DNA of 49,706 nucleotides from Candidatus Poseidonia sp. GTDB taxonomy: Archaea > Thermoplasmatota > Poseidoniia > Poseidoniales > Poseidoniaceae. The notes beneath the pieces were generated by a model, which worked only from the letters and a program-made list of their open reading frames with translations, did no database searches and was not told the origin of the DNA. The translations under genes and the position numbers were made by a program. Positions 385 to 30,495 of the stretch are shown piece after piece. The stretch lies in contig JASLVM010000010.1 in assembly GCA_030741355.1 (NCBI GenBank), forward strand, positions 1 to 49,706. Reading direction: 5' to 3'. The number at the start of each line of letters is the position of its first letter. The first letter of the stretch is position 1.

Positions 385-3300
385 ATGGATTCAATGACGT
401 CGGTGACCTCAGAATACGTTGCGGCTGGGGAAGGCCTCCCGCCGTGGCTGTTCACGATGTTGTGTGAGCCAACCGATCACGCCCCGATTTTGGTGCTTCA
501 CCCCACAGAACTCCATCGTCAACGGACCCTTGAACGTCTTCACCGCCAAGGGGTGTCGGTCTCTCCACAGCACCACTTAACACTCAATAGCCTCATCCGT
601 CTCCTCCATGTGGATCTCCGTCTGCCTGTGCTCCTCGATGATGAGGCCAGCATGTTCATGGCGCTCCACGGTAAATGTGTTGAAGCCGCCGAGGCAACAG
701 CTCTACCGTTTCTTTACACCCCGGGAGTGGGTGCGTGGACTTTGACCAAAACACGCCGGCTGCAACGGTTGCATGGAGAATTGATGCAGTTGCGAAACCC
801 GTTCAAGTGGGAAGGTGACCCAGGAGCGGAGGTGTTTCACCAACTCTGTCTGGAGGTTGAAGCTGCGGCTGGCGGAACCCTTCCATCCCTGATTACGCTG
901 CACGTGCTCGAAGCGTTGAACGAGGCAGAGGAAGCGCCGTTCCACCTCAGCGACATCGCCGGCATGGTGGTGTTGGACATGGCTCCTGATTTTACCGAGG
1001 TTCAACAGGACCTGTTGCTTGCTATCGCCTCGTTCTGTCCTGTCCATCAACTGCTCAATCCCGGCTCGTTTCGTTTGGGATTCCACGGGGCTTACCTCGT
1101 GGATGAACTGCCGTGCACGGCTGAAACCCTGCCTGCTTGGCTCCCTCCTCACGAACCATGGGCAGCCGATGCATCGTCATGGCAAACCGAGGTTGGGCAA
1201 CGAAACAAGACCGAAATCACTCGCCTCACCCTTGACGAACGTTCCCAAAGCATGGACGCTGCTCTGGCGTTCCTTCAAGCATACAAAGCGGAAGGAGAGG
1301 GAGAGGTTTTGGTGGTTGATGCCGCTGCGCGGGACCGTTCTCTTGAATGGTCATCGGCTCTCTCCACCATCGGCCTTTCTTGGCATCCCGGTTCCACGGC
1401 TTTGAATCAACAACCCCTTCATCACGCCATTGTGCGGGCTGCTTCCATGGCGCAAGGAATGAGTTCCTGGTCGCTTTTTTCGCTTCGCAGTGTCTTTTTT
1501 TCAGCGACGATTCCACTTCTTGACGACGTGTTCTCGCAACTCAACCACCCAACAGAAGGAACATGGAGACCTCGGCCCGATGCTGCGGTGCTCGAGGAAA
1601 TTGCGAGGAACTTCCACGTTCTTGGTGGCCCTGGAGCCATCGCACGTTGGTTGGGTGTGCTCTCATCGGCCGCCCCGTCTTTTGCGGAACGAAGGCCCGA
1701 AGAGAAAGCCCGTGCCCTTGAGGAAACACAGTGGTGGCTTGGGTGCTTGTTGCAAACTTGGGCCCCGCTGCTTTCCCCTGAAGACCGACATCTGCTCAAT
1801 CGTCCGGTGGAAGGTTGCACGACGGGCGCCTTGCTTCCTTTGCCCGAACCGACGCCCTCGGGCATGGCATGGCTCTCTTGGTTTGTTTCCGTCATCGATG
1901 TGGCCGCTTTGTCCAGCCGTCGAGCACCGTTTGATGCCGGCGTGGGCACCCTCCAGGTGCTGATTGAGTCCATGAATGATATCAAGCATCAACTTCAGTC
2001 CATGGGATTGTCCTTCGATGATGGCGGTTCACCCTTTGTTGACCTGCTCGAGCACGTCGGGGCCACCGTGAACATCACCCACCAATCCTCCCGCACCAAC
2101 CGCGTTCATGTCGTCTCACCGGAGGACGCCCTTGGTTGCACGGCCGACCTGATTTTGTTGGTGGGTATGGACGTTGATGCATGGTCAATGAAATCCTCCA
2201 CCGTCCCGTGGCTGGATGCTCCTTCTCGATTGGAACTCGGTTTATTCCATACCGACCTTGCCGTTCGTCGAGGGCGCCACCACCTTCGCCATTTGTTGAA
2301 TGCGGGGCGCCACCTCGTCGTTTTCGATTCTTCCCCGGAAGAAGGAGGCGGACCCAGTGCCCCACTTGCTGAATGGTTGAATGACCAGCAACGAAGCAAG
2401 GCTTGGGACGCCATGCGAGCACCGCCAAGTTTCCTTCCATCGAGGATGTACGAGGGCGATGAAGCTCCGAGAAGATTTACGTGGGTCCCGAGAGAAGAAG
2501 GCCATGGAAGTTGGCTGACCCCCGTCGTTTACGCATCGGTTGAAACCGAAGAGGGGTCGCACTTTGTTCGCCAAGGATTCAGCGGAAGAGATCGGCGTCA
2601 ACAACTGGGTTTGGACCTTCACGCCGGTCTTCATGGTTTGGAAGAACTCAACCATCCAACCGCAGTGCTTCATGCGTACGAGGGGGCCGTTCAAGCCGAC
2701 CGTCGCCGTCGCCAACCTTTGGCCAAGCGCATCGGGACCAGCGAGGTCTTCCCTTGGGAGCGACGGGAAGATCTGCTCAGTGTGGACGCCGTCACCCTTC
2801 GTCCAACGGCAGCGTCACTCAAGGTTGACTCGGTTGCCGCCGGTGTCTTCCCCCATCTTGGCTATCGGGGTGAGAAATCTGTTTCGTTAAGCGTCGACCC
2901 ACGCCCCCTCCCTCTCTATTCTGCCACCGGCACGGGTTTGGACCATCGATTTGGTCAACTTGAATCGCCGGTGGAGCGGGAGGTTTGGTCTCCCAGCCGA
3001 CTTGAAGGGTGGCTGAAATGTCCGCGCCAGGCATGGATGAAGCAAGTCCTAGGAGCGGATGACGAGGAGGGCGGCGTCACGGAAGACATCGACGTGAGGG
3101 TGCGTGGGCAAATCATCCACGAAACCGAGGCTGCGCTTATGCAAGGGCACGGCATCCCTCTTGGAGGAGAAACATCCGATGAACCCACTCCCTTGCATGC
3201 TGGGCCGATGGGTCAAGGAAATGCAGGATGGGACACCATTCTTGCCTTTTTAGAGGAAAAGGTGCATTGGTTGGGTCGGCAGAACGCCGTATCTGTTCAT

Positions 3301-14820: not shown

Positions 14821-15093
14821 ATGACAAACTCTCGAGCCCTCCCCGATACGACGGTCGGAACAGGCGAACCAGCCGCTAGCCGAATTGTCCTAACCCTGTT
14901 CTTTGTGGGCCTTCTCGGTCTGTATTCTCTCTTCTCAAACGTGTTCGGTTGGGATAACCTCCCACTTCTCGGTGAACTTGTTCCCTTGGTTCAGAACCTC
15001 GGTGGGAGCGGCATCTGGTACTACTTGATTGGCTTCTTGGTCGGCATCGGCGCGATTGTAGCAACCCTGGTGGGCGAGGTTATCGCTGAATGA
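14821..15093 (+). CDS. Small two-helix membrane protein
   Basis: About 90 residues with two predicted membrane helices (IVLTLFFVGLLGLYSLF and YYLIGFLVGIGAIVATLVG) joined by a ~30-residue loop. The start is set by GAGGTGA six bases before the ATG; a GTG at 14812 is less likely because it would overlap that site. The stop is 14 bases before the next gene, so it is probably a partner or assembly subunit of the large membrane protein that follows. No family is recognised. Confidence 0.7.
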   Translation: MTNSRALPDTTVGTGEPAASRIVLTLFFVGLLGLYSLFSNVFGWDNLPLLGELVPLVQNLGGSGIWYYLIGFLVGIGAIVATLVGEVIAE

Positions 15094-15107: not shown

Positions 15108-17093
15108 ATGGAAACGATTTTCATCACCGGCGGCTTCTTGGTTGCGCTTCTCTTTCTCCTCTCTCAATCCCTTGTGAAGGGCGTTGGCTCCGTTGGAGGG
15201 GCATTGAAACAAATTGGTCTTTTCATCCTGCAAAAGAACCCTCCCGGCCTGGTTGACATTTTCGACGACCGAGACGGGAGCGGCTCCCGAACGTGGATGA
15301 ACTTCGCCATGCTGTGGCTCGTCTTTGCTACGCTGCTCGGTTTCCTCAGTGGCTGGCATAAGTACGACCCCACGGCGCTCGATTCGCTCGCCAGCGTTGG
15401 ATGGTCCTACGACGACGGCTCCGCATTGACCGATGCGACCCTCAGCATTCTGACCATTGCTCTGCTCTACGGCATGATCGGAAGCGGTATGGTCGCCACC
15501 GCTCGAAACAGCAACGGACGCATGGCCAGTGAAGCCAACGCCTCCATGGTCGCTGTGTTGCTTTCCGCCGTTTTCTTGGCCAGCTACCTGTTGCCGTTCA
15601 TCTTCGGGTTCCTCGACATCGACACCGAATCCGGAAGCGTAGCCACCGCTCTCTACAGCCTCGAAACCTTGGCCATCGGTCTGCTGCTCGTGCCGGTGTT
15701 CATCAACGTCCTGATCACGGCCGCAAACCGAGGCGAGCAGGAGCTCCAGACCAGTGTTTGGTTCCTCATCATGGGTCTTGCTGCTTACATTCTCTCGATG
15801 GTCTACATGTTCTTCGGAGAACTCGCTGATTCCACCCAAACCGTTTGGTTTGCAGAACGTGTGGCTCACGGCTGGGTTCCGCTTGCATTGATGTTCTCCA
15901 TCGGCTACCACGTCATCCCGATGACGGCCAAGCAACCGATTTGGTCGGGTTCAATGCGCACGGCCAGCATGATGTTGCTCTTCATCACCATTCCTCCGTT
16001 TTTCATGACGGACGCCTCCGCCAGCAACTTCGTCACCAACCTGGGAGCCATCTTGCTCACTTTGGGCGTTCTGCCCATCTTCGCCGCTTCCATCAACCTC
16101 TTGATGACGGCGAGTTCAGGTTTGAGCGCCATCGTCAAGCAACCGGGTGCTGTAGCGGCCACCATGGCTTTCCTCGTTCTTCCTTTCTTTGCTGTGGGCG
16201 GTTATTTCACCGCCATGGACACCTTCGTCGGTACCGGTGAACTTGGCTCCATGGCCGAGATCGTGAACATGGGCATGTTGTTCACCGTCGGCGGACTTCT
16301 GGTCTTGGCTGGCGTGTTCACCAACTATCCCAACGCCATTGGAAAACCTCTCTCTTCACCGTCCACTGCCACACTGGCCACTTGGATGGTGCTGGTTGGC
16401 GGCGTGGCTTCCACGCTCACCTACTTGACCGGTGAATTCACCGCCAACGCCGTCGCAACCTCAGAGATTGAGGACGTTGTTGCCAACAATGGCAGCTTCT
16501 ACTTGACGGGAGCAGCCTTGTTCTATCTTGCCTCCATCGGCACCATCCTCTCGACGATGGTGGTCATTCGTACAGGCATTTCTGCTACGGGCCGTTCCAA
16601 GGCCGTTGAAGAGGCCTCAGACATGGTCGCTTACACTTTGACCTCCGGTTCCTCCACCACCATTCGCGACCTCATTGGCCGTGGCGTGGGCGTTGACACC
16701 ACCCTTGTCGTGAGCGAGACCGAAGCCAACGAAGGCGGTTCAACCATCATCGGCGTCGATTCGGCCCTTCACAACGACGAGATCAAGGAATTCCCCACCA
16801 CCACCGCCACGGTCATGGTTGACTTCGTCCAATACCTCGTGAACACCAAGCAATCCGTGTTTGACTTGTTCCGTAGCATGGACTTGGACGACTCAGGCAA
16901 AATTGACAGCCGGGAATTCCTCGCTGCCCTTGAGTCTTCAAACATCGATGCTTTGTCATCCATTGACGCCAGCGAACTCGTTGAAAGCATGGACTTGGAC
17001 GGAGACGGTGAACTCAACCTCCCTGAACTTGACATCGCTATCGCACAGATCAAGCGAGACCACGACCTTGTCGCCTCTGAAGAAGAGGAGTGA
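15108..17093 (+). CDS. Ligand-depleted CcoN-like membrane protein with C-terminal EF-hands
   Basis: A 661-residue protein with about 12-14 membrane helices (1-515), then a soluble tail. AHGWVPL...YHVIPMTAKQPIWS resembles the TM6-TM7 region of cbb3 oxidase subunit I, where GHN is followed by YY.IPK...RPVYS. The single His in AHGWV would match a CuB ligand. The HFW in the next helix reads ASM here, and almost no other intramembrane His remains, so heme and copper binding looks lost. The tail has two canonical EF-hand loops, 592-603 (DLDDSGKIDSRE) and 629-640 (DLDGDGELNLPE), each with the 1-3-5-9-12 oxygen ligands. A calcium-sensing or regulatory membrane protein is possible. The CcoN relation is by eye. 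Confidence 0.6.
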   Translation: METIFITGGFLVALLFLLSQSLVKGVGSVGGALKQIGLFILQKNPPGLVDIFDDRDGSGSRTWMNFAMLWLVFATLLGFLSGWHKYDPTALDSLASVGWSYDDGSALTDATLSILTIALLYGMIGSGMVATARNSNGRMASEANASMVAVLLSAVFLASYLLPFIFGFLDIDTESGSVATALYSLETLAIGLLLVPVFINVLITAANRGEQELQTSVWFLIMGLAAYILSMVYMFFGELADSTQTVWFAERVAHGWVPLALMFSIGYHVIPMTAKQPIWSGSMRTASMMLLFITIPPFFMTDASASNFVTNLGAILLTLGVLPIFAASINLLMTASSGLSAIVKQPGAVAATMAFLVLPFFAVGGYFTAMDTFVGTGELGSMAEIVNMGMLFTVGGLLVLAGVFTNYPNAIGKPLSSPSTATLATWMVLVGGVASTLTYLTGEFTANAVATSEIEDVVANNGSFYLTGAALFYLASIGTILSTMVVIRTGISATGRSKAVEEASDMVAYTLTSGSSTTIRDLIGRGVGVDTTLVVSETEANEGGSTIIGVDSALHNDEIKEFPTTTATVMVDFVQYLVNTKQSVFDLFRSMDLDDSGKIDSREFLAALESSNIDALSSIDASELVESMDLDGDGELNLPELDIAIAQIKRDHDLVASEEEE

Positions 17094-21817: not shown

Positions 21818-24800
21818 TCACAACAAATCGTCGAGGAAAGACGTGTCAATTTGCGGGCTCTTTTGAGCCGGTTCGGGCGCGTCCAGCAAGCCGTCCAACA
21901 GTGAGGGGTCCACTCGAGGCTGGAGGACGGGTTGGGTGGCCTGATAGGCAGGTCGACCGTAATCGGGGGATTGGATTTGGTTGGCGGCAGCGTAGATGTC
22001 GTTGGCTTGCTGGGTGGTGATGCCAGGCGGTGGTGCAGGGGCTGCGGCTGGCGTTGTTGCGGCTGGCGCTGCTTGGCTTGGCGTATCCCAATTTGAGTCT
22101 TGAATGCCCCACGTGGCTTCTTGCAATTCCCATGATTTCGAGCGCTGCTTGGAGGTGCTTCGACCCCTTACCACTATGACCAGCAGCAAGACGACGATGA
22201 GGAACATACCGGCGGCGATGAGGTTCGGTGCGGTGAGGAGGGCCTCAAGCGAGAAGGGACTCTCCGACCCGCTGTTGCCGTCGTCTCCACCGGTAGCGCC
22301 AAGGGCGTCAAGTTTCACTGCTTCAACCGTTGACTTGGCCACGGTGTCGTCGTAAGGAACGACGGCCACGTAGTAAGCTGTAGCGTTGTTCAAGCCGTCA
22401 AAGACATCCGATGTGATGAGGAAGGAATTGGCTGAGACCGTCTCGCCCACCATGGTTGCGTCATCGGTGCTCGTGAACATCTCGTCGCTGATGTAGATGT
22501 GATAGCCTCGAACATTGGCGTTTACTGAATGCTGCCATTCAACAAAGATGGTGTTCTCTTCAAACCACTCGGCTTCGACGTCCTCAATGTCTGGGAGGTA
22601 GACTCCGGGGTCAGTGATGCCTTCGTCGGTGGCGGCTGTGGAAACCACGGTGAGCATGTCAACATGGGCGTTCATCGACGAGTCGACCACCACCACGGCT
22701 ACCCAGACTTCTTGGCCGGGGATGACGGGTACATCGCCTGCGACCACGTCGATGACCAGCGGCAGGCTGGGTGCGCGGTCAAGGGTTGCGATGGGGTTGA
22801 GCGCCATCTGCGTGCCCTGTTGTCCCACCTTGCCTTCGAAGTTGTAGGTCTCGGCGTAGACGAGGTATTCCCAGACATCATCGGCGTCTGAGAGGTCAAA
22901 GGAGAGCAACAAGGCGCTTCCGTCGTCGTTGGGACGGTCGGTCAGGGTGAGGTCGGTGAGTCGGTCCGGAGCCGTCTTGTCGTTGATGTTGTCAATCGGT
23001 GTGACGCTGACCTGCGTGAGGTCGGTCAGGTGGACATTGCCCTTCAGGTCGTGAACCGTCACGGCCACGTAGAGTTCCACATCGGCCTTGATCAAGTCTG
23101 GGCTTCCTTGAGAGAGGTCGTTTCCATCGTCGACGTAAAGAGCCGTTGAGATGGTGAGTTCAATCGGGTTGGTTCGCTCGTCAATCCACTGTTTGTTGAA
23201 AGAGAAACAACCGCAGACGTTTGGGTTGTTGCCGAAGGCAGCGTAAGCGAGAGACAAATCCTCCACCGGTGCGTTGGCAACCCAAACGGTGTAGGATGCA
23301 AAGTCGTTCACGGTCGAAGGTTCCCAGACCACATCGATGGCCGTACCGTCGTCGTTGGCGTGGTCAAAAGCCATCAAAGACGTGATTCGGGGAGGCGTGG
23401 CTCCCTGACCGATGATGTTCTGCAGCGGTGTGACGGTTACCAACTTCACTTCGTCAACGTTCCCGTTGAGCCAAACATCGTAAGCGACCACACCAACCGT
23501 GTAGACCTGTCCATCGATGAGAGGGACGCCGTCCAAAGAGGAGACAATGGTTTGGTTCTCGTCGCACGGATTGATGACAGCTGCTTGGGAGAAACCGTCC
23601 ACGCTGGCCATGTCATCTTGTGCATGCTCGCCCTGCTTGACGAACACGGTGTAGAAGGCACAGTCTTCAGCGGTGCTGATGTTCCACTCCACCATGATGC
23701 GACCGCCTTCATCGTCCGGCACATCGCTGGCTTCTGTTCCCATTACAGGGTCTGGAGCGTCGTTGTCGTTCAGTTCACCGGTTGGGACCACTGGGCCAAC
23801 CACGGTCACGTTGGAGAGATTCTCCTGTCCTGCGGTGTCAACGCAGGTGAAACCGATCCACACCGGCACGCCGGGAGTCTGGGAGATAACCGACTGATTG
23901 CCTTCGTTGGGAGCATAAGAGGTGTACGGCGTTCGCCCGAGGGCGTCCACCATCGGTGTGGTGGAGACGTACACGTTGGTGCTGGCAAGGTCAAGCGCCG
24001 TGCATCGTGCCCATTCGAGTTCAATGTCGCCATCGTCCCCGCTGCTGCCCATGGCGTTGGCGGCTGCCCACAGGGGTGCGCCAGGAATTTCATCACTGGG
24101 CGTCGTTGGACCGAACGGTGCAGACACCTTACCCCATCGTCCGTCGGTGTATTCTGCAACCACAACACCGTAGTAATCCGTGCCGTCTTTGAGCGCCACG
24201 CCGTTCGCTGTCTCAATGTCGGCTGCCAAACGGCTGTGGAGGGAAATGGCCTTGTCTGGTGTTTGACCAAGTAACTCCAGTTCCGTTGGTGCAGTGGCCC
24301 ACGGGCCTTCGTTGAGGAACACGAGGTAGCGTGCAAAGTCCTCATCGTGAACCAACGACCACGAAGCGGTCAACACGCCGCCGCCATCATCCGGACGGTC
24401 TTCCAACCCGACCATGCTGACGGGCGTGTCGGTTCGGACATAATCGTAGGTCAAGCGCGCTTCCAGCGAGCCGTTTGCAGGCGAGAAGAGTCGCAACGTG
24501 ACGTGCCGGGTGTTGTTGTACAACATCCCGTTATCCACCGCATCTTGCAGATTCAATTCAAGCGTAGGGTCTTGACTGAGGTCCAGAAGAACGTTGTATT
24601 CCAAAGCCACTGATTTGGCCCAAACAGCCGCTCCGGTGACCGGCGAGGTCAGTACGATGGGGACGTTTTGGAACAAAAGGCCGTGAACGCCGGGCGTGCC
24701 TAACGTACTGTCAAGCGCGTGCGGGTTGGCTGGGTCTACGAGGTCGATCGGCATGCCGGGGTGGGTCATGGTGGTGATGTTCATTCCGCCGCTACCGAAG

Positions 24801-27800
24801 CCCCTCACGGTCAACGGCAAGGCTCGCCGCATCGATGTGGATTCCAACGGAGTGAATTGGCCGGTTCTGTCCCATCCTTGCAATCCTTCTTCGGTGATGG
24901 CCCAGAGATGGTTCGCACCCAATGCTCCCGCTTTCACGTTCGTGGCGCTGAGCGTGGCCTTGAAGGGATGACCGTCTGTGCGGGCCTCAGAAAGCATCAT
25001 GTTGTTCTGCGAACCGACTGAAAGGACGTCCTCACCATCGCTCATCATTTGGAGGATGGGGTACTGGAATTGGAACGCTGTCGTCCCGTCTTCGAAATCA
25101 CCGCTTGAGGCGTTCCAGTGGGTCAATGGACCCACATCGGTGGCCATATGGATGCCCCACCAGTCCGCTGCGAGCGCCGTCACGGTGTTCGAGGGCAACT
25201 GGTCAAAGCGGTGGGTGGAACTGACTTGGAGGGTGCTGGGGTCGACCAGCGACACACCGGGGCGGTCCACTGCACCTCGCCCGTCGTGACTGACGATGAG
25301 GGTCGAGATACCGACGTTGTTGGTGTTCACGGCGAGGCCCCAGGCAGATTGACCCATCAATCCGTTTGTTTTGGTCAACGTGGTGCCGCTTTGCGTGGAT
25401 GGATCCCAAACGAAGACGCCCGAAGGTGTGGCCATGTAAACTTTGGAGGCGACGACCACAACGTCCTCAACAACATTTGTGGGCAAGCCTTTGGAAACCG
25501 TGATGGAATCCATCCAACCGTTGGTGGTGTAGTTCCAGCGCCCAATGCCACCGTCTGTAGCGATGTAGAGCACGCCCGTACTGTCAGCAAAGCCGTTCAC
25601 GATGTTGGAAGGCAAACCGGCAATGAGACGCCCATTCCCAAACTGGTCGGTGTTTGGATTGAACATCTGTACGCCGGGCGGGCTTCCTCCTTCACCAGCG
25701 AGGCCAATCACAAGTTGGCTGTTGTAGGTGTGCATCGTGTCGAATTTTGTGTGGAGTGAACCGCCGATGTTGGAGATGACCTTGGTAAGGGTGTCAAGCT
25801 TGAGCATGCCACCGGGGGATGAAGCGATGTACAAATCCGTCCCGTGAAGATGAAGGTCGCTGGCCACCGTGTTGCCAGGGAGGGTCCAGCCGTATTGCCA
25901 TTCAATCGTTCCGTTGGGTAGGAAGGTACCTTGGAGCAAGCCGGTTCCTGTGCCACCAAAGTTTCCAGAGGTGGCGGATGTTCCCGTCGAAGCCCATAGG
26001 TGGGTGGCGTTGGCCACCATCGTGGACACTTGGCCGCTGACAAGGCCGGGAAGGTCCACGACCGTTTGCCGTCCCGATGAGGAGAGGGTGGCGACTTCGC
26101 TGTAGCCGGAAGAGCCACCTGCACGTCCAATCAACCATTCCGAGGAGCGGGTGAGCCACTGCAGGGAAGTTACCGGTGAACCTGCACCTTGGATCTGCGC
26201 CTGCAGAGCGGTGGCGCCGTTGGCCACCAAGGTCGAGTACCCTCCTGCGATGAGGTTTGGACCAAAGTTTCCAACGGCATGGCCGACGATGAGTTGCGTG
26301 CCTGAGTGTGAGAGTGCATCGTACCACACTCGGTCGCTGGGCAGGTTGTGACTGGAGGTGGTGAGGCTGGAGAGGAAGGCCGAGGTGGCGTAGCTGTAGC
26401 GGCTGATGGGTTGGTTGTCGTTGTAGTAGCCGATGTAGAGGGTGTCTTGGCTGTCGCAGGTGACCGAGGCGGGGGCGGTCCCGTCGAGTTGACTGCTGTC
26501 AAGGCCTGAATTGACCGTGGCGTTTGGCAAATCAAGGCGAGCGATCCCTCCGTTGTTGTTGTACATGGCGATGTTGAGCACACCACCGCACATTTCCATT
26601 GAAATTGGATAGCCGTTGGGGATGTTGGTGTAGGAATCAGCGGGGTAGGAAGTCCATGCACCGGCGCCGTTGCGGTGAGAGATGATACCTTCCTCGAACT
26701 GACCGAAGCGGTTGAAGTCTGCTCCACCGACCACCAAGTGCGTACCGTCGGTCCAGAGTTCGTAGAAGATGTCTCCGGCGTTACTCGGTAGGCCGTTCCC
26801 GGCTTCCCATGTGGTGTTCCATGTGTTCGTGATTTCGTTGTAGCGCGCAACGCCGTCTTCGGTGGCGAACAAGGTCTCACCGTTGTGCTCAACGATGCCC
26901 CGGATGGGGAATTCAAAGTTCGTCCATGCGTTCACGAGGTTTTGGTTGCTGTCATAAAGTTCCAGTTTCAATTCGCCCCATGAAACCCACGTGTTGCCGT
27001 TGGAGGATTCGTACGCAGTGACACGGTCGATGGAGCCGGTTGGCAGGATGTTGGCTTCCCATGAGGAGATGGTGGTGTTCCATCGGGCGATGCCACCGGA
27101 GCCGTCCGAGTTCCACCATTGGCCAGACACGACGCTGACCATGAGCGTATCACCTGACATTTCCATGTTGACGATGTCGCCACCGTTCTCACCGACTTGG
27201 GCGCCGATGTCAAGATTGCTGAGGGCGGTCAAATTAGCGACGTCAAGTCGGCTGACTTCATCGCTTGTTGTTCTGGCGTGGTAGTAGAGGATGTTGTTGT
27301 GAATCAGCATGTCGTGAGGTGCGCTGGCGGCGTTGTACAGGCTACTTGAACGTTCGATGTCGTAAGCTTCGCCCCCGGTTGTGACGTTGATGAGTTGGAA
27401 CCCGTCATCACCGCCAACCCACAGAAGGTTTGGGCGGATGTCTGCGACCAGTCCCGTGACATCGTCGTTCCCACCGTCCAGCACACCGTTGTCTTCGGTG
27501 AACGGCGTGAGCCACTGGTTGTTGGCGATGTCGTAGCGCAACACGCCCAAGCCTTCCGTTCCGATGTAGGCGGTGTTGCCCATGACTTCCACCACGGCGT
27601 TACCGGTTTGGGTGTCTTGGCCCCAGTTCTGATCGTGCTGGAAATTGGATTTCGTGATGAGGCCTACGCCAGAAGTGGTACCGCCGTAGACGTAGGTGTT
27701 GTCGTAGCCCACACTGTAGGTGGCCCAGTTGGGCATACCGTCGTAGACGTTTTGACAGTCGTTGATGCCCATGGTGGCGATGGTGTATTTGCAGACGCCG

Positions 27801-30151
27801 ATGTTGGTGCCTGCGTAGAGGCTGCCACCGTTGATACCGGATTCGATAGCGAAGTCAAAGAATTGCTGAGGGCGCGTCTGCCAAGAAGAGCCTTGACCGA
27901 AACTTGTCAGTTGGTTGCCGTCCCACCTGCGAGCACCTTGTTGCGTTCCGATGTAGAGATTGAACCCGTCGGTATCCAACGCGTAGATTTGGTCGGAAGG
28001 GAGCAGACCACCACGGTTGCCTGCGGTCAAGGGTGAGAGAATTTCACCGGTGCTGAGATCCTTTCGCACCACACCGTAGCCTTGCAAGCCGAGGTGGAGG
28101 ATGTCGCCGACCATGGCGACCGGCGCATTGTTGACGCCGTTGATGCCGGTGGAGCCCCAAGGTTCGAGCCAGGTGTCGTTGGTGATGTCATAGCGGAGCA
28201 GGCCTTTGTTTTCCGTGGCCATGTAAGCGGTGGTGTCAAAGAGCGCAACGTCCCCGACGAAGGATGTAGGCAAGCCGTTCGTTGTGTCATAAGCGATGCA
28301 ACCAGCAGTGGCACGGTCAAAGTGGACGAAGACACCGCTCTCCAAGGAAAACACAACGCTGTCCGCATTCACCGCTATATCGAGAACCGTGGTGGAAGAG
28401 GGATAGCATCCGGATGTTCCGTCGTAGGATTGGATGGTGTTGCCGTTGGTGTCAATCTCAGCCACCGATGGCGTGCCTTCCATGGCCACGAATAACGAGG
28501 AGGTGCCTTGTTGAGCGCTTGGGCCAACCACCATGTCCAGCACATTATCGCTGAGCGTCCACGGGGCCATCCACGCTGACTGAGCGATGTCGTACCGCAA
28601 GAGTTTCATCGAGTTGTCGGCTGTACCCACGTAGAGCATGTTGTCAAGTTCAACAAGCGCTGTCATGTCATCGGTTGATGGAGCGCTGGCCAGCAGCATG
28701 TTTCCTTCGATGAACGGGACTTGGTTGGGTGAGAGATGGATCAAGTTCCCGCTTCCATCGTCAACCAAAAGGGCCTCAACAGCGGGTGAAGCAAGGCCGT
28801 TTGATGGCCAGTGAAGAAGGGATGCACCATCGTCAGCGAGTCCAAGCGTCGTGAGGGCGTAGGTTGTGGAGAAGACCCCGTTGGTCGTGTTGTAAGTGTG
28901 CAATGAATCGCCGTTGAGGATGAAAAGGGTGGGGCCAACACGAGCAAGGCCTGCAATGAAATCGCTGGCGAGCCAATTCCCTGAATTCCATGTTGACAAC
29001 CAAAAGCCGGCCACATAGTCAAACCGCCCAAGTCCGTTGTCAGGAGAGCCAAGGAGAAGTTGATTTCCGGATGTGGCCATGTGCGTGATGGTGTCGGAGT
29101 GAAGGTTGTTGGCCGAACTCCACGCAGCAAGGGGACTTCCTGTGTTGGCGTTGTATCGGAGGACACCAACGCCGTCAAACGCAGCATAGACCACGCCACC
29201 AACTTCGATCATGGCGAGGGGCTGTGCGCCTTCGGTGGTGGCGATACTTGAAACGGTACTCCATGCTGCTCCATTCCATTCTGAAAGCCCCTGTTGACTG
29301 GACGCATAGACTTCGCCTGCGCTGGTCATGAGGAACCGTTCAAAATCACCATCCGCCAGCGGTGTGATGAAACTGCTGTCGGCGGTCTGTAGGGCGCGGA
29401 ACGTGCCATCGCCCATCAAGAGGTGAAGGACGCCAGTGCTGCTGTCCATGACCATGTCAAGAACGCCGCCTTCGGTCTCGTAATCGTAAACATCGATCAC
29501 CGGGGGGTTGTTGTTGGCGTTGAGCACGAGAAGTTGATCGTTTACGGCGAGGTAAAGCAAGCCCGTTTCCGGGTTGACGGCCTGACTGCGAACTTCAAAA
29601 TCAAAAGGCGTGAGCGACACCAAGGGGTCGGCTGGCGAGAGCGCCTCAATGACCATCTTGGTGATTTCGGCGTCCGATGGCAAATCCCACCCTGCTCCTG
29701 AATTGCTGTTGGGGTTGAGGCGGCCGGCGTAGGTTTCACCGGTGGTGAAGGCGTTGGCTTCTCCGAGGACACCAAGGCCCCTCCAGTCAAGCAGGGAGGT
29801 CCCCAATCCGTCGATGACGAGTTGCGGCTCTTGGATGGTCATCCCGTCTTGTCCGCTGGCGCGAATTTCCAGCGTGACGTTGGACAATTCAGCGCCGGGT
29901 GCAAACGCCAAATCCCAGTCGGCACTCGCTCGTTGACCGGTTTCTGGGACGGCACCGAGGGCGTCCAAGGTGACCCAACCCGTGTCATTACTTCCTTCCA
30001 GTGGCCATGTGACGCCGCTTGGTTCAGCGTGTGCTGAAACGACCGGGGTTGTGAGGAGTGGACCCATTGACATGAGGACCATCAGGATGACCATGGAAAG
30101 GGCTCGTTGGCGACGAGCCCCAAGACGGTCACCTTGATGGCCGAGTTTCAT
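21818..30151 (-). CDS. Giant secreted, membrane-anchored beta-propeller/Fn3 protein
   Basis: About 2,777 residues. Residues 1-40 form a signal peptide (basic GARRQR, hydrophobic core, cut near SAHA). To ~1900 there are many propeller-type repeats (GLLRYDITNDTW, GVLRYDIANNQW, LYVGTADN), like two-component-regulator or Kelch propellers, probably several propellers in series. From ~1910 to ~2610 come about six Fn3-like modules, several of which open with a DDG motif. A single membrane helix (~2640-2660) is followed by KQRSKS and a ~110-residue cytoplasmic tail with Pro/Ala/Gln repeats and the LLDGLL/FLDDLL motifs. It should display a long stalk and head outside the cell, for adhesion or glycan binding. 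ATG 30151 is chosen because a TATA-like box lies 22 bases upstream; a GTG at 30172 is less likely. The coding frame is intact. Confidence 0.85.
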   Translation of the reverse strand: MKLGHQGDRLGARRQRALSMVILMVLMSMGPLLTTPVVSAHAEPSGVTWPLEGSNDTGWVTLDALGAVPETGQRASADWDLAFAPGAELSNVTLEIRASGQDGMTIQEPQLVIDGLGTSLLDWRGLGVLGEANAFTTGETYAGRLNPNSNSGAGWDLPSDAEITKMVIEALSPADPLVSLTPFDFEVRSQAVNPETGLLYLAVNDQLLVLNANNNPPVIDVYDYETEGGVLDMVMDSSTGVLHLLMGDGTFRALQTADSSFITPLADGDFERFLMTSAGEVYASSQQGLSEWNGAAWSTVSSIATTEGAQPLAMIEVGGVVYAAFDGVGVLRYNANTGSPLAAWSSANNLHSDTITHMATSGNQLLLGSPDNGLGRFDYVAGFWLSTWNSGNWLASDFIAGLARVGPTLFILNGDSLHTYNTTNGVFSTTYALTTLGLADDGASLLHWPSNGLASPAVEALLVDDGSGNLIHLSPNQVPFIEGNMLLASAPSTDDMTALVELDNMLYVGTADNSMKLLRYDIAQSAWMAPWTLSDNVLDMVVGPSAQQGTSSLFVAMEGTPSVAEIDTNGNTIQSYDGTSGCYPSSTTVLDIAVNADSVVFSLESGVFVHFDRATAGCIAYDTTNGLPTSFVGDVALFDTTAYMATENKGLLRYDITNDTWLEPWGSTGINGVNNAPVAMVGDILHLGLQGYGVVRKDLSTGEILSPLTAGNRGGLLPSDQIYALDTDGFNLYIGTQQGARRWDGNQLTSFGQGSSWQTRPQQFFDFAIESGINGGSLYAGTNIGVCKYTIATMGINDCQNVYDGMPNWATYSVGYDNTYVYGGTTSGVGLITKSNFQHDQNWGQDTQTGNAVVEVMGNTAYIGTEGLGVLRYDIANNQWLTPFTEDNGVLDGGNDDVTGLVADIRPNLLWVGGDDGFQLINVTTGGEAYDIERSSSLYNAASAPHDMLIHNNILYYHARTTSDEVSRLDVANLTALSNLDIGAQVGENGGDIVNMEMSGDTLMVSVVSGQWWNSDGSGGIARWNTTISSWEANILPTGSIDRVTAYESSNGNTWVSWGELKLELYDSNQNLVNAWTNFEFPIRGIVEHNGETLFATEDGVARYNEITNTWNTTWEAGNGLPSNAGDIFYELWTDGTHLVVGGADFNRFGQFEEGIISHRNGAGAWTSYPADSYTNIPNGYPISMEMCGGVLNIAMYNNNGGIARLDLPNATVNSGLDSSQLDGTAPASVTCDSQDTLYIGYYNDNQPISRYSYATSAFLSSLTTSSHNLPSDRVWYDALSHSGTQLIVGHAVGNFGPNLIAGGYSTLVANGATALQAQIQGAGSPVTSLQWLTRSSEWLIGRAGGSSGYSEVATLSSSGRQTVVDLPGLVSGQVSTMVANATHLWASTGTSATSGNFGGTGTGLLQGTFLPNGTIEWQYGWTLPGNTVASDLHLHGTDLYIASSPGGMLKLDTLTKVISNIGGSLHTKFDTMHTYNSQLVIGLAGEGGSPPGVQMFNPNTDQFGNGRLIAGLPSNIVNGFADSTGVLYIATDGGIGRWNYTTNGWMDSITVSKGLPTNVVEDVVVVASKVYMATPSGVFVWDPSTQSGTTLTKTNGLMGQSAWGLAVNTNNVGISTLIVSHDGRGAVDRPGVSLVDPSTLQVSSTHRFDQLPSNTVTALAADWWGIHMATDVGPLTHWNASSGDFEDGTTAFQFQYPILQMMSDGEDVLSVGSQNNMMLSEARTDGHPFKATLSATNVKAGALGANHLWAITEEGLQGWDRTGQFTPLESTSMRRALPLTVRGFGSGGMNITTMTHPGMPIDLVDPANPHALDSTLGTPGVHGLLFQNVPIVLTSPVTGAAVWAKSVALEYNVLLDLSQDPTLELNLQDAVDNGMLYNNTRHVTLRLFSPANGSLEARLTYDYVRTDTPVSMVGLEDRPDDGGGVLTASWSLVHDEDFARYLVFLNEGPWATAPTELELLGQTPDKAISLHSRLAADIETANGVALKDGTDYYGVVVAEYTDGRWGKVSAPFGPTTPSDEIPGAPLWAAANAMGSSGDDGDIELEWARCTALDLASTNVYVSTTPMVDALGRTPYTSYAPNEGNQSVISQTPGVPVWIGFTCVDTAGQENLSNVTVVGPVVPTGELNDNDAPDPVMGTEASDVPDDEGGRIMVEWNISTAEDCAFYTVFVKQGEHAQDDMASVDGFSQAAVINPCDENQTIVSSLDGVPLIDGQVYTVGVVAYDVWLNGNVDEVKLVTVTPLQNIIGQGATPPRITSLMAFDHANDDGTAIDVVWEPSTVNDFASYTVWVANAPVEDLSLAYAAFGNNPNVCGCFSFNKQWIDERTNPIELTISTALYVDDGNDLSQGSPDLIKADVELYVAVTVHDLKGNVHLTDLTQVSVTPIDNINDKTAPDRLTDLTLTDRPNDDGSALLLSFDLSDADDVWEYLVYAETYNFEGKVGQQGTQMALNPIATLDRAPSLPLVIDVVAGDVPVIPGQEVWVAVVVVDSSMNAHVDMLTVVSTAATDEGITDPGVYLPDIEDVEAEWFEENTIFVEWQHSVNANVRGYHIYISDEMFTSTDDATMVGETVSANSFLITSDVFDGLNNATAYYVAVVPYDDTVAKSTVEAVKLDALGATGGDDGNSGSESPFSLEALLTAPNLIAAGMFLIVVLLLVIVVRGRSTSKQRSKSWELQEATWGIQDSNWDTPSQAAPAATTPAAAPAPPPGITTQQANDIYAAANQIQSPDYGRPAYQATQPVLQPRVDPSLLDGLLDAPEPAQKSPQIDTSFLDDLL

Positions 30152-30495
30152 GGGTTGGGGTGTATTTTTCACTTATTTGAAAGGAAGCCTTCGCTGTCTG
30201 TACAATTCTCAACGAAAATCCAACCCGCAACAGGAGAATATCGGGGGAATCTTTTCGTTCTATGGCCCTTCTTTTCAAACATGGAAGAAGCGTTTTGGAC
30301 GGCACGACCGTCGCCTCATCAGATGCCGCCAAGAACACCTATTTTCTAAAGCGAATCAAGCAATATCTCGACCAACTCCAATGAACACAGCCCTACGTGC
30401 TCGCACGGTGTTGATGTGCTGAAACAGCGTCACGACCGCTTCAACTTCGCACAACAATCAAACCCTGCCTTCCCGCCCTTTTTTTGGGGAAGCCC
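30152..30495. other. Divergent intergenic region between giant surface gene and malic enzyme gene
   Basis: This gap of 344 bases holds the minus-strand TATA-like box (30174-30181), a hairpin GACGG-CACGA-CCGTC (30298-30312), and a T7 run flanked by CCC and GGGG (30476-30489) just before the malic enzyme start. I found no tRNA, convincing small ORF or repeat. No TATA box is obvious for the plus-strand gene. Confidence 0.4.
30174..30181 (-). promoter_or_regulatory. TATA-like box TTCAAATA of the giant surface gene (leaderless)
   Basis: TTCAAATA on the minus strand ends exactly 22 bases before the ATG at 30151, so transcription would start at or near the start codon. No Shine-Dalgarno is present. 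The same box occurs before the MMPL gene at 41842-41849. Confidence 0.55.

Follow-up and report, generated by a model that had tools for sequence, protein, structure and literature searches.

The 661-residue protein encoded in the window (the whole stretch of 49,706 nucleotides that we analysed) appears to be a former heme-copper oxidase subunit I that no longer carries the metal ligands of its relatives. Judged from sequence profiles and structure models, its membrane domain is a member of the heme-copper superfamily by fold and inferred descent, not a heme-copper oxidase. The 12-helix fold of subunit I was recovered by Foldseek with two models, and sequence homology is detectable. We do not class the protein as an oxidase because the heme and copper ligands that define such an enzyme were looked for and are missing. 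The explanation we favour, at a probability of roughly 55%, is that this former subunit I is non-catalytic, is probably complexed with a small two-helix protein, and in the family Poseidoniaceae carries a tail that most likely binds calcium and acts as a switch.

The host is a Poseidoniales (Marine Group II) archaeon with a draft genome of 1.97 Mb. Following PMC9258230, we read the two families of the order, f1 and f2, as Poseidoniaceae, which contains the window, and Thalassarchaeaceae, the other named family. The features of the locus are listed in Table 1. A sequence resembling a ribosome-binding site, GGAGGTG, lies just 5' of the large gene, and the stop of the two-helix gene falls 14 bases before its start. 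The membrane domain comprises 13 helices, an extra N-terminal helix followed by a 12-helix core that has the fold of CcoN. Elsewhere in the window (21818-30172, minus strand), a 2784-residue ORF with a signal-like N-terminal stretch and a hydrophobic helix at its C-terminus looks like a large surface protein.

Table 1. Positions in the window of the large gene, its parts and the gene upstream
Feature	Position	Strand	Detail or basis
Large membrane protein with EF-hand tail, heme-copper-oxidase fold	15108..17093	+	661 aa, ATG start
Small two-helix membrane protein	14821..15093	+	90 aa from ATG 14821; 93 aa if GTG 14812
Membrane domain, residues 1-491	15108..16580	+	AF2 model, Foldseek, hhalign
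Arg251, column of first CuB ligand His of CcoN	15858..15860	+	hhalign column, 68 family members
EF-hand pair cassette, residues 571-650, predicted cytosolic	16818..17057	+	Pfam, cassette alignment, charge bias
EF-hand loop 1, D592-E603, DLDDSGKIDSRE	16881..16916	+	loop motif
EF-hand loop 2, D629-E640, DLDGDGELNLPE	16992..17027	+	loop motif

The first-pass annotation had pointed to a CcoN-like stretch in the membrane domain. In single-sequence searches against Pfam and the PDB, the window protein matches EF-hands only, and Pfam COX1 is not among its matches. The relation is therefore visible only with profiles or folds. Because a full-length family profile was swamped by calmodulins, we removed the tail (profile A2). 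When A2 was compared with all PDB chains, two matches were obtained at E<10, CcoN and NorB. The match to CcoN of R. capsulatus (E 5.5e-4) aligns profile positions 113-441 colinearly with chain positions 117-462, about 330 residues; the match to NorB has an E value of 0.41. Pfam COX1 was matched unaided by two of 32 family members (best 3.8e-9). Partial COX1 matches of other members were short and in a shifted register, as is permitted by the internal threefold repeat of the heme-copper subunit I fold. Using hhalign, we aligned the family with seven CcoN proteins over 407 columns (P 4.7e-13) and with A-type COX1 (P 8e-4), against P 0.41 for a control comparison with NuoL, another large membrane protein. 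The stretch W247 to P277 is paired with the corresponding CcoN segment, in agreement with the annotation.

Structure models gave the same relation. The AF2 model of the window protein (pLDDT 80.5, pTM 0.73) and that of an f2 member only 22-23% identical to it (pLDDT 82, pTM 0.85) were built on 34 and 25 sequences, respectively. In the Foldseek comparison of the window model with the PDB, the top match was cbb3 CcoN (3mk7_A; E 1.9e-8, TM 0.75 on the target) and ranks 1 to 46 were all heme-copper subunit I chains. The next match was a MATE transporter (E 0.048, TM 0.15). The f2-member model likewise had cbb3 CcoN on top (E 1.7e-11), and each of the 50 matches listed lies within the heme-copper superfamily. 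These computed comparisons of profiles and models show a relation to heme-copper subunit I in both fold and sequence, closest to CcoN and NorB.

We then compared the positions of the redox ligands. The low-spin heme histidine H122 of CcoN aligns with A110 of the window protein and the first CuB histidine, H271, with R251, while the H321/H322 pair and the H409/H411 (HxH) segment stand opposite gaps in the family alignment. Among the 68 family members, none of the six heme and copper ligand positions has a conserved histidine, and no column of conserved His, Met or Cys was found. The alignments thus show that the ligands of heme and copper have been lost. The comparison with COX1 and CcoN by profile and fold that the first-pass annotation had proposed, a significant match with residues other than histidine at the ligand columns, came out as it had anticipated. 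Its claim of ligand loss holds. Its implication that the first histidine was kept does not: the probable candidate, H254, lies three residues off the CuB column, where R251 is found, and relatives have L or N at that position.

Column 251 is occupied by R in 41 of the 68 members, H in 11, K in five and Q in four, so that 57 of 68 have a basic residue there. Six of the members with histidine belong to f2, in a context like 'WLxYHxxGGxFFF' that can be set against the CcoN segment; the other five are Poseidoniaceae, with WMAEHVLTGWVPL. The histidine of the f2 members looks like a fossil ligand. Since five of the 11 cases are Poseidoniaceae, reversal to histidine is also possible from the alignment.

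The genome that encodes the window protein also has a distinct, canonical COX1 that retains its histidines, and COX1 scored above the Pfam cut-off in 38 of 40 genomes tested, which indicates that the window protein is not the cell's oxidase. The mature protein probably contains neither heme nor copper. A divergent 558-residue heme-copper protein in genome G019 was considered as an intermediate and rejected as a separate COX1-family protein. In one sister-family genome, L087:394-2070 (-) encodes a divergent heme-copper subunit I (PF00115, 3.6e-36), possibly NO-reductase-like, beside two cupredoxin-like proteins (ORFs 2087-2632 and 2655-3215).

Comparison with known systems places the window family nearest to CcoN, subunit I of the C-type cbb3 oxidases. 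Both have the 12-helix core, the same helix order and a colinear sequence, including the QW(x)3-[His column]-x(3)-G and INxLMT stretches. Unlike CcoN, the window family has no conserved histidine at the six ligand positions, has the extra N-terminal helix and, in Poseidoniaceae, the EF-hand tail, and CcoO and CcoP genes are not beside the window gene. NorB, of the cytochrome c-dependent NO reductases, is the second-best kind of match in fold and sequence, but the ligands of heme b, heme b3 and FeB are absent from the window family. As described in the available part of PMC9258230, the halobacterial family fam02696 is likewise archaeal, lineage-specific and distantly homologous to heme-copper subunit I. 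By that description, on which our comparison is based, it belongs to a different lineage and often lies beside genuine cbb3- or NorB-type subunits.

The membrane domain is conserved across the order. With the window protein as query, we found matches in 115 of 116 Poseidoniales genomes; because the match in G020 is restricted to the EF-hand part, the membrane domain was counted in 114. In a profile search of 293 genomes of the phylum, the domain was present in Poseidoniales and was not found in the six genomes listed for the class's other family. Nowhere outside the order did these sequence searches give a convincing instance. Candidate relatives in two other Thermoplasmatota (G189 and G276) were rejected as short stretches of 240-residue frames with E values of about 0.001-0.003.

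The two-helix protein, which the first-pass annotation had suggested as a partner, is real and co-conserved with the large gene. A homologue lies directly upstream of the large gene at all loci with flanking sequence, in both families of the order, and a Pfam search with the two-helix protein gave no match. The order across Poseidoniales is a radical-SAM gene, the two-helix gene, the large gene and a YGR210-like GTPase gene (Pfam names). These data suggest that the two-helix protein is a partner of the large protein. The large gene has no respiratory genes beside it, and genes for redox partners (CuA subunit II, CcoO/CcoP, NorC) are absent nearby, the conserved neighbours being the radical-SAM, two-helix and GTPase genes. 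No description of an oxidase-fold EF-hand protein was found in the literature searched.

The tail carries the paired canonical 12-residue Ca2+ loops that had been noted at first sight, as judged by loop motif and Pfam (EF-hand_7, E 9e-7). Positive charges lie on one side of the membrane in 68 of 68 members, with a mean of 12.0 K+R inside and 0.7 outside, and the tail is therefore predicted to be cytosolic. Of the 68 members, 51 have at least two EF-hand loops; the 15 without any correspond to the shorter f2 type. The tail is thus typical of Poseidoniaceae and mostly absent from members of Thalassarchaeaceae. Since most sister-family members do without it, the core function cannot depend on Ca2+ sensing by the tail. 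From its loops, the two-EF-hand module most likely binds Ca2+, and the tail may have a regulatory role. Like a calmodulin-type pair, which it matches in Pfam and the PDB, it has two canonical 12-residue loops. Unlike such a pair, it is covalently attached to a membrane protein as its tail and has a conserved LPPWE/D linker that is shared with cassettes on NuoL and ATP-synthase subunit I of Poseidoniales. In some relatives (L045, L057, L058, L061 and L063) a SAP-like domain ends the protein, after or in place of the EF-hands, and in another (L059) the EF-hand pair is duplicated.

Cassette alignment revealed that this unit of about 80 residues, in most copies with the LPPWE/D linker, recurs on other proteins, an observation that goes beyond the first-pass annotation. 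NuoL carries it in the window's own genus and in the f2 genus g18, inserted after 'MAKGMLFMASG', a loop that should be cytosolic judging from NuoL topology. In genera g5 and g18 the cassette is fused to the C-terminal half of a split NuoJ (PF00499). In genus g2 it is inserted before the membrane domain of the A-type ATP-synthase subunit I (PF01496); because a one-contig genome also carries this insertion, it is not an assembly artefact. NuoL proteins of the window's own genus with a cassette homologous to the window protein's tail were recorded at L092:4951-7560 (+) (G000:C38) and L097-L107, NuoJ-half fusions at L125:578-1153 (+), L182:752-1348 (+) and L186:1020-1604 (+), and subunit I with the cassette at L134:2480-4888 (+) and L140-L149. 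These alignments show that, depending on the genus, one cassette is common to the oxidase-fold protein, NuoL, NuoJ and ATP-synthase subunit I. To our knowledge, there is no known case of calcium-binding modules within archaeal complex I and ATP synthase, and none in either complex was found in the literature searched.

The idea that the cassette is on complex I or ATP synthase in all Poseidoniaceae genera failed, as it was not seen there in several genera. In g3 and g4, for example, the cassette is on the oxidase-fold protein and none was seen on complex I or ATP-synthase subunits. In a tree of cassettes, the hosts are intermingled, and for the most part they branch away from the EF-hand proteins with a zinc ribbon found in the same genomes. 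Support is weak at most deep nodes, and we therefore do not claim a direction of transfer. Widespread in Poseidoniales are membrane proteins that combine a zinc ribbon with one to three EF-hand pairs, for example at L093:1184-3097 (+), L184:2163-4634 (-) and L187:1981-4530 (-). In the available parts of two earlier studies, these archaea are described as having a canonical complex I and an A1AO ATP synthase that is putatively Na+-driven (Tully 2019, PMC6336850), and each family of the order is noted to have its own typical calcium-binding families (Meheust 2022, PMC9258230). Those parts mention neither the oxidase-fold protein nor the cassette insertions.

What does a subunit I without metals do? 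The protein might be a membrane scaffold or assembly factor of the respiratory chain, with the cassette as a docking module for a common cytosolic partner and Ca2+ in a structural role. This would account for the way different genera have the cassette on NuoL, NuoJ and ATP-synthase subunit I, and for a linker between the hands that is conserved beyond the Ca2+ loops. We nevertheless consider it unlikely, as both loops are kept in the 51 members, which include nearly all that bear a tail, as expected of a Ca2+ sensor. It is also rather doubtful that the protein is a Ca2+-gated conduit, in which the empty heme/CuB cavity and the old proton channels pass ions or protons and the EF-hand tail gates the leak. 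The retained oxidase fold, the basic residue at the CuB column, the cytosolic side of the tail and the nearly invariant polar residues N330/T334 (aligned to CcoN 'INGLMTLSG'), N200/T204 and S280 are consistent with conduction. However, the membrane core lacks a conserved Asp, Glu or Lys, and most of the invariant polar residues are found at the ends of helices.

We regard it as improbable that a redox or other cofactor is still bound through different residues: histidine often occupies columns 84, 268 and 555 in Poseidoniaceae members, but these columns are not conserved family-wide and there is no conserved Met or Cys column. Least credible of all is a generic polytopic protein with EF-hands whose oxidase likeness is an artefact of fold prediction, since the lack of COX1 in the single-sequence Pfam search and the modest PDB profile score are outweighed by the agreement of the sequence profile, the controlled profile-profile comparison and the models of two proteins 22% identical, none of which indicates another membrane fold; the first-pass annotation had named the lack of any relation to the heme-copper family as the finding that would overturn it, and homology was detected by both profiles and folds.

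According to our preferred explanation, a former subunit I turned calcium-responsive, the ancestor would have been a subunit I of the heme-copper oxidases, nearest to CcoN/NorB, and its redox centres would have been lost before Poseidoniales diversified. The protein would then have been retained as a non-redox membrane subunit that probably forms a complex with the product of the two-helix gene upstream. Within Poseidoniaceae, the cytosolic C-terminal two-EF-hand module, most likely with Ca2+ bound, would act as a switch on the membrane part or on the contacts it makes with other complexes of energy coupling. Against this explanation, a common cassette need not mean common regulation, the gene has no respiratory neighbours, most Thalassarchaeaceae members do without the EF tail, and the two models draw on 34 and 25 sequences.

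If the reading is right, a respiratory enzyme has turned into a non-redox subunit, and a superfamily defined by hemes and copper has a member that lost both. This ligand-less member would have been kept for another job throughout an entire order of archaea that are abundant in the ocean. Ca2+-binding modules within archaeal complex I and ATP synthase would be unexpected, and the sharing of the cassette hints at calcium control of energy conversion. More tentatively, Poseidoniales may have a calcium control layer over the energy-converting membrane, in which the cassette moved among the oxidase-fold protein, two complex I subunits and ATP-synthase subunit I, cytosolic Ca2+ tunes the ion circuit, and the dead oxidase is the most widely kept sensor.
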